A DNA stretch of 42,742 bases from a virus. The stretch is taken from positions 1-42,742 of the IMG/VR virus record IMGVR_UViG_3300037189_010995. One strand, written 5' to 3'. Below, in pieces: positions 163 through 34,600 of the stretch. The notes below the pieces were generated by a model that saw only the letters and a list, made by a program, of their open reading frames with translations, had not been told where the DNA came from and made no database searches. The position numbers and the translations under genes were made by a program. Numbering within the stretch: position 1 is the stretch's first letter; each line of letters opens with the position of its first letter.

Positions 163-294
163 TAGGTGATCAATATAGGTAAAGGGAAACTACTATATTG
201 ATCGTGATACTGTTGGTTTACCCAAGCCTTTTGCCAACACATTGTCCATGTCTGGAGTCGGACCTATTTATTCCGCCACGCAATGTTTGTATCG
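163..294 (-). ncRNA. Structured inter-tRNA spacer (candidate small RNA)
   Basis: This spacer lies between tRNA-Trp and tRNA-Ser and has no ORF. In transcript order it starts with a multi-stem unit (293-206). That unit is closed by GATAC/GTATC (289-293 with 206-210) and contains a CATTG/CAATG stem (281-285 with 240-244) and a TGTTGG/CCAACA stem (211-216 with 234-239). A separate perfect 11-bp hairpin follows (193-203 with 168-178, 14-base loop), ending 5 bases before tRNA-Ser. The piece GTGGCGGAAT near 270-280 resembles the D-arm of Leu tRNAs, so a decayed tRNA is an alternative. The structure is read from the sequence; the function is unknown. Confidence 0.4.
168..203 (-). repeat. 11-bp inverted repeat (hairpin) before tRNA-Ser
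   Basis: GATCAATATAG at 168-178 is the exact reverse complement of CTATATTGATC at 193-203, with a 14-base loop between them. No T-run follows on the minus strand, so it does not look like a terminator. It stands 5 bases upstream of the mature 5' end of tRNA-Ser and could be a processing or stability element. Confidence 0.7.
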
Positions 295-365: not shown

Positions 366-535
366 AAATGCCAACCACGACTTTGATTCTTAATCTAAAC
401 CATCTGTTGGCTGTTATACCTAGTCACGACCGCAGAGCAATCTCCATGAGCCTGAACGCCTTCGTATGATGCAGGTGACATTGTAGGATTCGGTACAACT
501 ATCTTTGCATAGATTGTTCAGATCTATACTCCGAG
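366..535 (-). ncRNA. Structured 170-base inter-tRNA spacer
   Basis: This stretch between tRNA-Gly and tRNA-Trp has no convincing ORF. It contains several short inverted repeats: ATAGAT/ATCTAT (509-514 with 522-527); TTGTA/TACAA (481-485 with 494-498); GTCAC/GTGAC (423-427 with 475-479); and GCCAAC/GTTGGC (370-375 with 406-411), which encloses GATT/AATC (385-388 with 392-395). A competing pairing, AACTATCT with AGATTGTT (497-504 with 511-518), excludes the first hairpin. No single closing stem is visible, so the claim is weaker than for 607-726. Confidence 0.3.
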
Positions 536-606
536 AGCGGATGATCAGAATCGAACTGACCCCTTCTGCTTGGAAGGCAGAGGCACTACCAATATGCAAC
601 ATCCGC
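536..606 (-). tRNA. tRNA-Gly (anticodon UCC)
   Basis: The acceptor is GCGGATG/CATCCGC, the D stem GCA/TGC, the anticodon stem TCTGC/GCAGA with loop CTTCCAA, and the T loop TTCGATT. The discriminator is T. It reads GGA, a frequent Gly codon in this window. Confidence 0.93.
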
Positions 607-726
607 AAGGAGACTACAGGTAGTATTCCAGCACCAAATGACGCTGCCCTATCTCACCGTAACTCTTACGCCACGGGATGTAATATGTAACTATAACATC
701 CTAAGTAAGTGCTACCTGTAGTCTCG
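607..726 (-). ncRNA. Candidate novel small RNA closed by a 14-bp stem
   Basis: The spacer between tRNA-Leu and tRNA-Gly is closed by a perfect 14-bp inverted repeat: GAGACTACAGGTAG at 610-623 and its reverse complement at 712-725. Three hairpins lie inside: GGATGT/ACATCC (676-681 with 696-701, extendable by three pairs), CGTAA-CTC-TTACG (658-670) and CAGC/GCTG (629-632 with 643-646). The result is a four-way-junction shape, but it lacks an anticodon stem, T-loop motif and acceptor. The closing stem ends 1 base from the tRNA-Leu 3' end and 3 bases from the tRNA-Gly 5' end, so ordinary tRNA processing would release it. Phage T4 is known to carry stable non-tRNA RNAs in its tRNA cluster, which is a precedent by position only. 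Confidence 0.6.
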
Positions 727-799
727 TACCCCAAGTTGGATTCGAACCAACGCTGTGTGGATTTTAAGTCCACTATCTCTACCACTGGATTACTGGGGC
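727..799 (-). tRNA. tRNA with Leu anticodon UAA but short variable loop
   Basis: The acceptor is GCCCCAG/TTGGGGT with two G-U pairs, and the discriminator is A. The anticodon stem is GTGGA/TCCAC with loop CTTAAAA, so the anticodon is UAA and reads UUA. The T arm is GTTGG/CCAAC around TTCGAAT. Only five bases (ACAGC) separate the anticodon stem from the T stem, whereas bacterial Leu tRNAs normally have a long variable arm. The anticodon call is unambiguous; charging with leucine is inferred from it and from A73. Confidence 0.88.
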
Positions 800-22000: not shown

Positions 22001-25000
22001 TTACCAGCTAACCCACAAATCTCCGACAGATCCTGTTCCCGAACCTGGAGCAGATGTTCTTGATCCATAATAAACCCCTAGCCCAACCAATGTTTGTCCT
22101 GTAACTGGGTCTTCAACAAGCATTCTTTGTCTTGCTGCTGCGCCCAAAGGCGAAGCATTTCTAAAATATCCATTTGCAAAAGTATTAGTTGTACCATTTG
22201 CGATTCTTAATGTTCCAGTAGAATAGTCATAATAAGGTGTCCCAGCTAATGGAGCAAAATAATTATATTGATCCCAGCTAGTTACATCAAAGTTTCCTTG
22301 TACTGGTAAACCATATATATTAACTCCATTATTAGTTGCGTCTAATACGATCTTTGATCCCGCTGTGTATGCTGATGCTCTATCGCCAGAAGTCACTGTT
22401 GCTGATCCAAATAAAACAATTGATGCGTTTGCTGTTGCTGAAGCTGAAATATAGCTTCCTGAGTTTCCTGCTTTAAATGAAGTAGAAGACCAAGAATTAT
22501 AACTATCTAGGTAATATGAGGATGCTGTTATTGATCCTGTTAAAGTTACTGTTCCATCTGCTTTTACTATAAAGTTTCCATTACCCGCATAAAAAACATT
22601 GTCCGAAGAAGAACTTGGAGATTGAATTGTTACTCCATATGCGCCCGTAGGGCCTTGAACTTTTATAGAAGGTGTAATTGAGCTATTATCAAGAATAATT
22701 TTTGAAGAAGAGTTTGCAGAACCTGTTCCAGTTATAGAGTTTGAGTTAATAACCCAGTTTCCAAGTTTTGCTGCTGTGCTATAAAAAGTATTGCCCGCCC
22801 CGTCTGCATCGGAAGAAATGTATGTTGTTCTTGTTCCGTCACTATTAAAAGCTTCAAATCCATTTGCATTTAAAGATATTCTTTGACCTAGGTTTGCTGC
22901 AAGTCCAGACCATAAAGATGCTCCATATTTTAATTGAACATTTCCACTAAATGTAGAAGCATCTTTTACATCTAATTTTCCAGCAAGTGTCAGGTCTGTT
23001 CCATCAAAGTATAATTGATCTTTTAAAGAAAACTTACCTGATGAATCCATATAGAACCCCGAATTTTTATAACCGCTAGTTCCTGTTTGAATGTATGTGC
23101 CTGAATCAGCACTATCTGATTTAATAGTGATGGCATTTGTGCTTGTTCCCACTGTTATATATTTTCCAGCAGCCAGCGTTCCCGTTGTTATTTTATCTGC
23201 AGATAAGTCTGAAATATACGCAGCAGATATAAATGGTATTGCAAAAGAAGTTGTTAGCTGCGATGGGTTTGAACGCTTTCCATCATTACCCACTGCATAA
23301 GAATAAAATTTAAAGCTGCCCGTTGATGATTGAGACTTATTAACTGTAAAATTACCTTCATTATAGTTTGTTGTAGCACCTGGATATGCTGCAACAATTG
23401 TTCCTAATTTTTGAGCATTTGCGTCGTTTGCAGATGTATAAAATTCTGGTATTGCCCAAATTTCAAAATAATTTACATTTTTCTCTATTTGACTTGTACC
23501 ATCTGATTTTAAAGAATATTGCCTTGCTCTAATATTTAATGGTCCTGCGCTTGTGTTTGCAGAATCAGTTCCAACATATATAGTTGGGGATGAGGGGGCG
23601 GATGGTGCAGATGATGTTAAAACTACAACTGGACTTGGGGTGTCTGTCCAAACCCCTTTAGATCCTGTAGCAGTATTAAATCCTGCTATTCCAACATTAT
23701 ATGAAACACCTTGTATTAAATTTGCAATTGTATAAGAAGAAATTGGAGCAGATGATGAATATGGTACAGATATATATGTATATCCAGAATCTATTGATCT
23801 TTTATATCTTATTACTACCCCGCCATATTTACTATATGTAGATAGGTCTGGCGATGTCCAAGATACATTTAAGCTTCCCGACCCGCTTGCAATTTCTGCT
23901 GGCGTTAAATTTTGTGCTGTTACGGTTAAGCCTGTTTGTGCTGCGGGTGTTGAAACGTCTATAGCCACTGGGTCATCTGGTGTAACTACCTGAACAGAGC
24001 TATAAGATGTAAATAAATTATGAAAATCTGCTGCCTTTGCTCTCACCCATCTTGTTCCTGGACTAGCTATGCTTATATTTGCTGGGTTTGATGTGCCCGC
24101 ATATACTACTGACCAATTTGCGCTGGCTGCTGGATCAGTCAATGATTCTTCTACAACAAGTTGAGAAAATGAAGCCTTTGTTACATCCGTATAAACACCT
24201 GTAAATGAAACTGAATATGCGTTATTTAATTTTGTTACAACTATTGTCGGAGCACTTAATTGACTTGCATATGTTGCACTTGTTGCTACAGCAGCATCTC
24301 CTTGATTTCCAAAAGAATCTTCTGCGGAGATTGATATTGAAAATTGTGATTGAAACAATCCAAAGAAATGATAGTTATCACTTTCTGACAATGTAAATGA
24401 TTGATTAGATCCAGACTTTGCTATTGGCGCAATAAATGTTTTATTAACTCCGCCTGCCGAAAGTGTTATTACAAAATCTTTTGCATAAGCATTTGTTACA
24501 CTTGTTACGCTTTGAGGATCAAATGTAAAAGTAACTAGTAAGTCTGCATTTTTCCAAGTCCCTACTATACTAGAGACTGCACCTGGCTTTGCTGCTGTTG
24601 AGGCATTTTTACCAGCTCTTACTATGTCTGAAGATTTTGCAGAAAAAGAACCATCATCATACCAATAGTTTTGATCATTAATGTATAATCCAGTTTTGTT
24701 CCCTGCTGGATTTACTCCTGGACCTATCTTTACAGATCCCGCCGTCAGAGTTCCTGCAAAATATGCTTTTCCAGTATTTGCATCTACCGCAAATTCTGGA
24801 GTTCCATTATTAAAACCACCAATACCGTTTGCATTTAGTACAACTCCAGTACCACCAGAATCTAGTTGCTGTGGAATACCCGATGAGTCTATGAAATAGA
24901 TTGATCCTGTATCTTGTGTAAAGTCCCCAGCAAATACAGAACCTCCAGACATTTGAGTATTTGTGGATGTGTTAGTTGTAGAAAGCTTTGCACCACTTGA

Positions 25001-25150
25001 TGATGTGGATGGAGCTGTTATCTGAATTGGAGCAGAATATACAGAGGGTATAGTTGTACCATCAGAGAGAGTTTTGACAGCAAAAACTTTTACAATATAG
25101 TCTTGACCAGGTGTCAAACCCAGTACGCTTATTGAACCTTGCTCAGCCAT
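22001..25150 (-). CDS. Large minor tail protein / central fibre with Fn3 domains
   Basis: This 1049-residue protein has several fibronectin-III-like modules in the first two thirds (SVLGLTPGQDYIVKVFAVKT at the start; SYTIANLIQGVSYNVGIAG in the middle). A region follows with ISDLSADKITTGTLAAGKYI, typical of phage central tail fibres, and then a long Gly/Ser/Asn-rich beta part. AAAGGAGGG precedes the ATG. It probably forms the central fibre or receptor-binding appendage downstream of the tail hub. Confidence 0.78.
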   Translation of the reverse strand: MAEQGSISVLGLTPGQDYIVKVFAVKTLSDGTTIPSVYSAPIQITAPSTSSSGAKLSTTNTSTNTQMSGGSVFAGDFTQDTGSIYFIDSSGIPQQLDSGGTGVVLNANGIGGFNNGTPEFAVDANTGKAYFAGTLTAGSVKIGPGVNPAGNKTGLYINDQNYWYDDGSFSAKSSDIVRAGKNASTAAKPGAVSSIVGTWKNADLLVTFTFDPQSVTSVTNAYAKDFVITLSAGGVNKTFIAPIAKSGSNQSFTLSESDNYHFFGLFQSQFSISISAEDSFGNQGDAAVATSATYASQLSAPTIVVTKLNNAYSVSFTGVYTDVTKASFSQLVVEESLTDPAASANWSVVYAGTSNPANISIASPGTRWVRAKAADFHNLFTSYSSVQVVTPDDPVAIDVSTPAAQTGLTVTAQNLTPAEIASGSGSLNVSWTSPDLSTYSKYGGVVIRYKRSIDSGYTYISVPYSSSAPISSYTIANLIQGVSYNVGIAGFNTATGSKGVWTDTPSPVVVLTSSAPSAPSSPTIYVGTDSANTSAGPLNIRARQYSLKSDGTSQIEKNVNYFEIWAIPEFYTSANDANAQKLGTIVAAYPGATTNYNEGNFTVNKSQSSTGSFKFYSYAVGNDGKRSNPSQLTTSFAIPFISAAYISDLSADKITTGTLAAGKYITVGTSTNAITIKSDSADSGTYIQTGTSGYKNSGFYMDSSGKFSLKDQLYFDGTDLTLAGKLDVKDASTFSGNVQLKYGASLWSGLAANLGQRISLNANGFEAFNSDGTRTTYISSDADGAGNTFYSTAAKLGNWVINSNSITGTGSANSSSKIILDNSSITPSIKVQGPTGAYGVTIQSPSSSSDNVFYAGNGNFIVKADGTVTLTGSITASSYYLDSYNSWSSTSFKAGNSGSYISASATANASIVLFGSATVTSGDRASAYTAGSKIVLDATNNGVNIYGLPVQGNFDVTSWDQYNYFAPLAGTPYYDYSTGTLRIANGTTNTFANGYFRNASPLGAAARQRMLVEDPVTGQTLVGLGVYYGSRTSAPGSGTGSVGDLWVSW

Positions 25151-25160
25151 TTACCCTCCT

Positions 25161-26066
25161 TTATAATAATTCTATATAGTATTCTATATCAATTGGTACA
25201 TTATACAGCTTACCTATTGGCGTAGAAAGAGATGATCTACTTACAAGTGTTTCTTCAACAGAAAGTTCTTCTGACGTAGAAACTTTAATGGCATCTAAAG
25301 TTGTTGCTGCCGTGGAATCTGTTGAAATACTTATAGATTGTATATTTGTAAAATTAAAGATATTAGAGCTAAAGTTTAAAGCTAGTGCGTAAGCGTTAGA
25401 AGATGTTGGAATTGAGTAATTTAAAGTTTCTGTCTGACCGCTAATATCTGTAAGGACTAATGTTAGTGTTCCTGCAACAGAATCTTTTAATAATAATTCT
25501 AGCTTGTCTAGGGATGTGTAATTTGCAAAAGGTACTGATAATGAAGAATTTGTATATACAGAATTTGGAGATATCACTGCTGAATGATCTCCTATTCTTG
25601 GAGAATTTAATTCAGATGCAACAAAATCTTGCACATCAACAAAACCGTCAATTACCTGCCAATTATTTACATAAGAAAAATCTTCTAAAATTTTGTTATT
25701 TCTACTCGCTGCACTTGATAATGCTGATGTAGGATATAGGCCTATCTCATATATATTTGCGTATATGTTTTCTGGTATTGTTCCTCTAACTACAATTAAG
25801 TCTGGATTGCCAGAGGACGCTGCTATTAGAGTTTTTAAAGTTACTGGATATCTCCCCGTTTCAAAACTTAATTGCTTGTCATTAATACTAGTCTGCGATG
25901 ATATGGCACCTATTGCAAAGTCTGCTGCCCAATCTTGCCTTAAACCACAAAGGTATTGAAGAATCATCTTTCTACCATTACTTGTAATAATGTTTTCAGA
26001 TCTTCCTATCTCCACCCCATTTTGCTTAAAAACATATGTCCCTTTAAATGTAAACATTGATTGCAT
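25161..26066 (-). CDS. Minor tail protein
   Basis: This 301-residue protein opens with FKGTYVFKQNGVEIGRSENI and NGRKMILQYL, then FAIGAISSQTSIND and an NIYEIGLYPTSA segment. This pattern resembles tail proteins that begin with a short N-terminal plug and carry a beta jelly-roll. The C-terminal half looks like a carbohydrate-binding beta sandwich. I choose the ATG at 26066; a GTG at 26069 is next to it. It overlaps the upstream gene by 23 bases. Confidence 0.65.
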   Translation of the reverse strand: MQSMFTFKGTYVFKQNGVEIGRSENIITSNGRKMILQYLCGLRQDWAADFAIGAISSQTSINDKQLSFETGRYPVTLKTLIAASSGNPDLIVVRGTIPENIYANIYEIGLYPTSALSSAASRNNKILEDFSYVNNWQVIDGFVDVQDFVASELNSPRIGDHSAVISPNSVYTNSSLSVPFANYTSLDKLELLLKDSVAGTLTLVLTDISGQTETLNYSIPTSSNAYALALNFSSNIFNFTNIQSISISTDSTAATTLDAIKVSTSEELSVEETLVSRSSLSTPIGKLYNVPIDIEYYIELL

Positions 26067-31600: not shown

Positions 31601-34600
31601 CTATGGCCTCCAACACTACTTATTGTACCACTCATCTTTGCCGTCACTACTTTTTTATCTAGGACTGCTTGTACGTGTTGTCCCGCAATTCTTGCAATTT
31701 CTTCTGCTGATGCACCCGTCTGTGCATGGATGGTAATTGGTGCATGAACAACCATTTTTTCTGAAACATCAGATTTTTGTTCCATCATTCCTTGAATTAC
31801 ATCTATTATTTCTGCTGCTACTGCGGGATATTTAAGTGGAGAAGGAAAAGCCTTTCCAGCAATTTTTGTAGCAGTTAATGCTCCAGTAGTGTCACCCAGA
31901 TATTGCCAGTTGCTATCTTTCTTGCCCTGTAAAGTTCTGAGTATAGGTAATACGCCAAGTACTTCTAGAGAAGCCTTTGCCCCGTACTTCCATAATTCCC
32001 AATCTGACATTTCATCAAATGATTTTTCATGAGGTACTATTACCCCATCTGTTTTTGGAACAAACTTTTCAGGTCCCTTTTCTCCTACCCAATAAGTAGA
32101 GTTTGCTTTTACTGGACCGCCCTTTGCTTTTCCTGGATATTTTTTATTATATTCAGCTAGTTGCTTTGGAGTTTTAATCATGTGTACATTTCCATCGTCT
32201 TGAACTTGAAACACATAATCCCCGTCGGGGGCGGTCATTTTAAAATAGTCTCCCTTTTTCAAGTTTCCTACTTTAGCAAGTTCTTTAATAGACTGTCTTG
32301 TAGAATTAGCGCTTCCCCAGTTCCCGTCATTCCACTTTTGTGGATCTGGTGGCAACTGGCCGTTTGAAAAATCTGCTTTTGGAAACCTTGCTATAACATC
32401 TTGTACTGTTCCAAAACCTATTGCTCCCGATATAGTTTGTCCAGTGTTTACCGTGGCAACTCCTGGTGGAGCACCTGGCTCACCTGGCTTTGCCCGTGTG
32501 TTTATTTCAATTTGATTAAGCTTTGCTGTTGCTGGAGCAACAGCATTTGACATTGCTGTTTGCATATCAGTAATTTGTTGTCCCAGCGCATCTGATTGAG
32601 ATTTCTTTTGATCTATAACTTTTTGTGCACTATAATCACTTTGCTTGTTAATTAATTCTTGCTGCAAAAGTTCTGCTTTTAGATTATCACCATTTGCTTG
32701 CGCCATTAAAATTTGATTTTTTAAATCTTGACGTGTTGATTCCCAATTTGTTTCTGCTTGTCTTGTTTTTAAAGCATCTTCTAAAGATTTTATTGTTGCG
32801 TCTAGGGCTTTCTTTTGTTCTTGAAGCGCTTTAACATTTTTTGTTGCAGCAACAGTTCCTGCACTAACTGCTGAGTTTGCAGCATTTTGAGATTTTGTTT
32901 TTCTGTCCATTGCTATTTGAATTTGATTTTCTAATTCAAGTGTTTGTTTTCCTGCTTTGCCATTTAAATCTGGGACATTTAGTTGAAATCCTTTATTGCC
33001 ACCTGTAGTATCTACAGAAATTCCTAGCTGGCCTGCAGTAAAAATATCTTGAATTTGTTCTGGAGAAAATCCTTGACCCGACAAAGCCTCTACATTTTTT
33101 GAACCCTGAATATCTCCTTGCATAATTAAAGATCTTATCAGTCCGTCAACATAGCTTTTTGCACCCACAGCTGAACTTCCTATTGCATCAATAATATCTT
33201 TATATTGTTGCCAAGAATTTGTATTAACTGCTAAGTTTGTTAGCTGTCCGATAAATATTGAAAATTGATCAAAATTTCCCTTAGATGCTTGCAAACTATT
33301 TTTAATAGCAGATACCTGATCTGCTGCTGAGACACCCGCACCCATTGCATTATGACCAGACATTGTTAATAACATTTGAGTCAGGGCATTTGCTTGTGAT
33401 TGACTTATTCCATTTAATGCCATTTGCATTTGTGCAAAATCTTCAGCAATCTTTTTTGCAGAATTTTGATCTGAGGTTTCTTTTAATTGCTTTGTTACTA
33501 ACGATAGCGGGTTATCTTTTGGTAGCTTATCAACCATCTTTGTAAAAGCGTCAAATTGTGCATTTGTATAAGCCATTCCTTGAGCTAGTGAATTATTTGC
33601 TTTGCTTGCTGATACTGCCACGCCCGCCCATGTATTTAAATGATGTGTTAAATCAGCTACAGAACCGCCAAAAAATTGAACTGCTTCTGCGCTTGATTTC
33701 CAGTCAGCTTCTGATTCGGCCTTGTGTTCTTTTTCCACTTCATTTAAATGTTTAATTAAACCTACTACTCCACCAATTGTTGCCCCAGCAAGTGCACCCC
33801 ATGGGCCAAAAGCCATACCCATGGAACCCATTTGCATAGCATCATTTGCAATAGCACCGCCTGTTGGACCCAAAGCTTTATTAATTGTTGGTGCTGCCAT
33901 TTGCATAGCCATAGATCCCAACATAGAGGCGCCAATTTTTGTGCCTGTGCTCATGTTGCTCATTTTTTCTTTAAATTTTCCTAGCCTTGAATTAGGGCCA
34001 AAAGCTTTACTAAATTTGCTTTCTAGACTTGATTGTGATGTTGAGTGAGAAATTCCATCTCCAATCTCTTCTGATATTTCTTTTCCTTGAGCCTGCCACC
34101 ATGGCTTATCTATTGTTGCCTCTTCTTTAATACCTTTATGGATACCCTTAATATAGAATCTACCAGACTTTTCACCCTTCCATGAAGGCGATTGGTTACC
34201 TAAACCTTTATCTCCTTCTTTTACAATTTCTTCTGTTATTTGCTTTACTTGACCTTTTACTCTTGGAAGAGCTTGTACATCTTTAACTCCCGCATATGCG
34301 CCTGAGCCAGAAGTAGAAAAATCTGGAGCATAATCACTTTGACTTAATCCTGGGAAATCTCTAGCAGCTCTACTTTGAGACCAAACTTTTATTCTTTGTC
34401 TTAATGATAGTTTTTGACCAGATTCTTGTGGGTCTATGAAATACCCTCTTCCAGTTGTTGCAGTTCCAGAACCTGGATTGGTTGCGCTTGTTCTCCCCGC
34501 ACCTTCTCCTCTTGTTCCAATAAAGTTATTTTGCAACTCTTCCAAATTCCAAACTCTGCCTGATCTTCCAACTGCAGTAACCTGTCTTGATGCTGGAGAC

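Follow-up and report, generated by a model that had tools for sequence, protein, structure and literature searches.

The tRNA cluster of phage T4 yields small RNAs that are not tRNAs, known as species 1 and 2 or RNA C and D. The element described here would likewise give a small non-tRNA RNA from a phage tRNA cluster; we know of no sequence relation between it and the T4 RNAs, and of no complementarity of the latter to 23S rRNA. GOLLD and ROOL are also structured, phage-encoded RNAs found near tRNA clusters, and pull-down experiments are reported to show binding of GOLLD to ribosomes (PMC12286853). However, these are nanocage RNAs of about 600 to 800 or more nt, for which a 23S-antisense design is unreported and whose Rfam models miss the element; the family described below has members of only ~77-140 nt, compared with the >500 nt and elaborate structure that define GOLLD and ROOL. 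The packaging RNA of phi29 is a phage RNA of ~120 nt with paired ends, and in some relatives an element of the present type lies near packaging genes, but the element has no Rfam match, is distributed with tRNAs, and shows complementarity to 23S rRNA. Base-pairing to rRNA, often to several segments, is typical of guide or chaperone snoRNAs and archaeal C/D sRNAs; this RNA, in contrast, is phage-encoded, no C/D or H/ACA boxes are seen in it by eye, and its presumed bacterial host is not known to have such machinery. Finally, a peptide nucleic acid (PNA) antisense to helix 69 (H69) of 23S rRNA has the same target as the conserved core of the element and inhibits the growth of E. coli, although it is a synthetic oligomer (PMC7038079).

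The sequence studied is a 42.7-kb virus record, called the window (the whole stretch of DNA analysed). Its tRNA cluster, identified with ARAGORN, occupies positions 4-1417 of the minus strand. Within this cluster, the element (610-725, minus strand, 116 nt) abuts the upstream tRNA-Leu(UAA) (726-799, minus strand) and is separated from the downstream tRNA-Gly(UCC) (535-606, minus strand) by a 3-nt tail, CTT (609-607). The tRNA-Leu is only 74 nt long and lacks the long variable arm that is usual in tRNA-Leu. The functional strand of the element is the minus strand, that of the flanking tRNAs, which corrects an earlier description; read on this strand, it runs from 725 to 610. The 5' arm of its closing stem P1, GAGACTACAGGTAG (712-725, minus strand), forms 14 perfect pairs with the 3' arm, CTACCTGTAGTCTC (610-623, minus strand). 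Thus, the coordinates bear out the size, the perfect 14-bp stem, and the filling of the tRNA-Leu/tRNA-Gly spacer reported in an earlier note on this DNA. The minus-strand fold of the element has an energy of -47.3 kcal/mol (z = -4.8; 0 of 200 shuffles equal it). Three internal hairpins, also listed in the note, are present in this predicted fold, but an alignment of 16 close relatives backs only P1 and a few inner-hairpin pairs. The note had seen no tRNA features, and neither ARAGORN nor the Rfam tRNA model calls the element a tRNA. The covariance-model search that it proposed, made with Rfam 15 (including GOLLD, ROOL, phage pRNA, Y RNA, and tmRNA), left the element unmatched both at the gathering threshold and at E<=10, while 11 diverse relatives gave nothing at E<=5 except tRNA-derived matches.

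The first relatives were collected through homologues of the neighbouring large terminase, many of which are accompanied by a related element. Further members came from pattern scans with the conserved core, which are free of terminase bias. With an enclosing stem required, 80 related elements were obtained from uncultured phage contigs; since the core served as bait for most of them, its conservation is partly a matter of ascertainment. The outer 10 bp of P1 covary across the family: 51 different helices are seen, 98.8% of their pairs are standard, and all four Watson-Crick types are present at each of the 10 positions. When P1 arms are exchanged between elements, the mean falls to 47% and the maximum to 57%, and P1 therefore marks a real RNA family. 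Two-sided changes occur in 11 of the 17 pairs predicted for the 16 close relatives. The note had suggested looking for compensatory changes in the closing stem and had regarded its proposal as refuted if relatives carried unrelated spacers free of paired changes; across the relatives, paired changes in this stem are extensive. They support what the note proposed as a possible new phage small RNA, and at the level of sequence, the RNA family, its covarying stem, and its coding strand are established.

The strict core pattern lies downstream of the terminase gene in 24 of 29 relatives with >=78% identity and enough downstream sequence. For three of the five pattern-negative relatives (L013, L015, and L016), a longer spacer alone may explain the exclusion; L013 does have a stem-enclosed core with longer spacing, which the strict pattern misses. 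From more distant terminase relatives the element is often absent. Searches of isolate phages by blastn with three family members returned chance matches only, and two versions of the core, sought in 84,980 prokaryote genomes, gave 0 matches for one version and otherwise a single match (L202), around which no closing stem was visible. Pattern matches at the ends of capsid genes (L098, L103, L143, L152, and L155) look like a terminator-like hairpin of another kind and were excluded from the family. In these contigs, and in L125 and L189, a core-like hairpin, GGGTGTTATAGTTACGATACCC, stands straight after a stop codon and before a terminator-like hairpin; this recurrent hairpin is different from the family element.

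Other structured stretches were seen in the window and elsewhere. The tRNA-Trp/tRNA-Ser spacer (163-293, minus strand, 131 nt) contains a multi-helix part closed by GATAC/GTATC and a perfect 11-bp hairpin (168-178/193-203), and the tRNA-Gly/tRNA-Trp spacer (366-534, minus strand, 169 nt) contains a GCCAAC/GTTGGC hairpin. No relatives of the former were found among terminase neighbours and none of the latter were found, and neither shows complementarity to rRNA. In Streptomyces phage Kenrey (L233), a 126-nt stretch with a 12-bp closing stem (34184-34309) lies shortly after the tmRNA gene, in a region (together with 24063-25679) that has genes for an RNA ligase, a polynucleotide kinase, and a Ro-like protein that binds RNA. 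This stretch is possibly a phage Y RNA. No family element was found in Kenrey at 45-94 kb, and the idea taken from this phage, of a Ro-bound Y RNA (YrlA), was set aside for the family after 24 related contigs, most of them fragments, proved to lack TROVE/Ro (PF05731).

The surroundings of the elements suggest how the ends of the RNA would arise. The element starts <=10 nt after a same-strand tRNA in 52 of the 80 cases and ends <=10 nt before one in 45. Nine of the 28 elements with no upstream tRNA carry a near-perfect σ70 promoter (TTGACA/TATAAT, <=1 of 12 positions mismatched) whose end lies 5-7 nt ahead of P1; an equally good match was found at 4 of 2400 random places. For the tRNA-following elements, the best upstream promoter match has >=5 mismatches. 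A tRNA directly before the element and a promoter just before P1 would therefore both give an RNA of the tRNA strand with one and the same 5' end. The strand also receives weak support from P1 itself, where G-U pairs outnumber A-C pairs by 20 to 10 on the strand of the tRNAs. The layout, in which 52 of 80 elements directly follow a tRNA, fits the proposal of the note that cleavage of the flanking tRNAs would free the RNA. In the window, 3' processing of tRNA-Leu would set the 5' end and RNase P cleavage of tRNA-Gly the 3' end; copies in other tRNA clusters would be released by tRNA 3' and 5' processing in the same way, and copies elsewhere would depend on a strong promoter of their own.

The conserved core, M1, consists of CTTAGGATGTTATAGTTAC (687-705, minus strand) and is antisense to 23S 1910-1929, which comprise H69 and its 3' flank. 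Its consensus in the family, CUUAGGAUG(G/U)..UAUAGUUAC, is the complement of this segment of actinobacterial 23S. A 23S target goes further than the note, which assigned the RNA no function. The complementarity to actinobacterial 23S covers 19 nt with one 23S nucleotide omitted, and M1 of the window leaves C1920/C1921 unpaired. Against the Arthrobacter rrn region, the pairing score is 34, and 0 of 5000 shuffles are as good. This p-value is post hoc, because the rRNA match was recognised by eye before the test; the masked test described below is not so affected. M1 scores 34 with actinobacterial 23S versus 27.5 with that of E. coli and five other groups, while the variant present in the window scores 32.5 with E. 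coli 23S, nearly equal to its Arthrobacter score. The AUGG inside M1 has no counterpart in E. coli 23S. It complements H69 in its actinobacterial form, which has AACCAUCC in place of AACGGUCC; Arthrobacter and Nonomuraea 23S have GUAACUAUAACCAUCCUAAG at the site where the E. coli type has AACGGUCC. Deviations from 23S complementarity that are compatible with G-U pairing show no clear excess over control windows, and the sense orientation and 16S are far weaker as targets than the 23S site.

The rest of the element resembles the antisense of neighbouring parts of 23S domain IV. M2, GUCAUUUGGUGCU (630-642, minus strand), is irregularly antisense to 23S about 1962-1978 and is, in the window, partly paired inside its own hairpin. 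M5, GGAAUA (624-629, minus strand), is antisense to 1938-1942 in helix 70, as seen in alignments with 23S hairpin H71 removed and in a deletion scan, and is longer in relatives (GGAAUUUCGC). M3/M4, GAGUU...GGUGAGAUAGGGCAG (644-665, minus strand), shows a weaker similarity to the antisense of about 1990-2010; this match is seen in several relatives, whose pairing with Arthrobacter 23S extends to about 2010, and is weak in the window element itself.

In the masked test, M1 and P1 were removed and the remainder of 23 dissimilar representatives was paired against all of 23S. The best 100-nt windows of 23S start at 1941, 1921, and 1961 (means of 24.35, 24.09, and 23.33, with an overall mean of 17.8), directly adjoining the M1 site. 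The best window anywhere in 720 dinucleotide shuffles has a mean of 20.97 (sd 0.59) and a maximum of 22.93, so that 0 of 720 reach the observed value. When coverage by 6-mers is counted with M1 masked, 23S 1962-1967 stands well apart from every other 23S site, being covered by as many as 16 of 24 representatives, against a maximum of 10 in shuffles. In the deletion scan, pairing is optimal when 23S 1944-1961 is skipped (507.5 versus 464.5 unskipped; shuffled best <=439.5). The skipped stretch, 1944/45-1961, is H71; the gain from skipping it, 43, is not extreme alone, as shuffles gain up to 55. Once H71 is removed, relatives such as L197, L050, L069, and L172 each show one run of pairing through helix 70 and 1962-1978, whereas M2 and M5 are hardly present in L033 and L088. 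Single elements are often without significance taken alone, and the inner modules fit actinobacterial 23S no better than other 23S. For the family, the complementarity to one 23S segment is beyond chance, and it would place these elements in the class of rRNA-pairing antisense RNAs.

Along 23S, the order of the target sites is M1 (1910-1929), M5 (1934-1942), H71, and M2 (1962-1978). The elements themselves occur in two layouts: type A (72 elements) reads P1-M1-...-M2-M5-P1', and type B (8 elements) reads P1-...-M2-M5-M1-P1'. As predicted pairings, the two circularly permuted layouts can both be accommodated on a single 23S segment. Structurally, P1 of type A would coincide with the gap that separates M5 from M1, P1 of type B would lie outside, and a linear target fits both. 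A leader directly upstream of P1, ATAGAC(C/T) or similar, is common to most type B elements (L096, L104, L122, L161, L165, and L188), and the sequence just before P1 in these leaders contains no clear σ70 promoter.

The nearest cultured terminases are those of Streptomyces phages: the terminases of the window and of one type B contig are both ~65% identical to those of Stanwilliamsviridae. This affinity agrees with the actinobacterial signature in M1, and from the two we infer that the window phage probably has an actinobacterial host. In the reading that we favour, with a probability of roughly 0.6, the element is a phage gene in its own right, for an RNA that pairs with domain IV of host 23S rRNA in free or assembling 50S subunits, the most likely target in such a host. 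The RNA would pair with three stretches, 1910-1929 (H69 with its 3' flank), about 1934-1942 (helix 70), and 1962-1978, and H71 would be looped out; P1 would keep the RNA compact and protected and would join its two target-binding arms. H69 forms a bridge between the ribosomal subunits. Pairing in the cell would presumably block or remodel the subunit interface, and the phage would thereby take over or limit host ribosomes; we hypothesize an effect on translation. That a ligand bound here is capable of inhibition is shown by the PNA against H69, which halts the growth of E. coli (PMC7038079). Access of the RNA to its target is uncertain, since domain IV is folded in the mature 50S, and blocking ribosomes would harm the phage too, which counts against inhibition.

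The RNA might instead pair with 23S for assembly, protection, or modification, as a chaperone or guide of nascent 23S or by shielding H69-H70 from a host nuclease. We consider this improbable, though it is the strongest of the alternatives. A fixed irregularity at 1917-1921 would then present or spare one nucleotide: all 20 core variants in the 80 elements are irregular at about 23S 1915-1921, within the H69 stretch, and a perfect complement of the M1 site was unmatched in the viral_contigs set. Multi-site pairing around an intact hairpin also recalls chaperone or guide RNAs. To our knowledge, however, bacteria have no guide-RNA machinery, and by eye the aligned elements show no C/D or H/ACA features. 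The irregularities sit at C1920, which TlyA 2'-O-methylates in H69 (PMC12805891), but the position of the unpaired nucleotide shifts between 1917 and 1921.

Somewhat less probable still is a structured phage RNA of another function, for example protein binding or packaging, whose similarity to 23S reflects ancestry or coincidence. In distant relatives the element is placed right after the terminase gene, and phi29 pRNA is a terminase RNA of similar size. Yet the link to terminase is partly a search bias, and some relatives with the same terminase lack the element; moreover, the 0 of 720 in the masked test, the actinobacterial fit of AUGG, and the skipping of H71 are hard to obtain by coincidence. 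That the element is a DNA site rather than an RNA is very unlikely. The core is similar to the rDNA site that homing endonucleases target (the I-CeuI region), and M1 overlaps this conserved rDNA sequence, but the centre of the site is altered, and covarying stems, promoters positioned to start at P1, the tRNA-processing layout, and permuted architectures all argue for RNA.

Phages are known to target ribosomes by proteins. Pairing of a phage RNA with domain IV would, if true, mean that RNA is aimed at a functional centre of 23S that is conserved universally, and would represent either a new form of host takeover or rRNA guiding in bacteria. The open-access literature yielded no precedent for a phage RNA antisense to 23S, which does not prove its absence elsewhere. 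The broader proposition, that a widespread phage RNA family in two circular permutations around H71 inactivates or reprograms host large subunits, an RNA-based takeover not described before, we hold to be slightly favoured by the sequence evidence. With the target, strand, ends, and predicted pairs all given, pairing with 23S is directly testable, and it would account for at least some of the unassigned structured RNAs of phage tRNA clusters.
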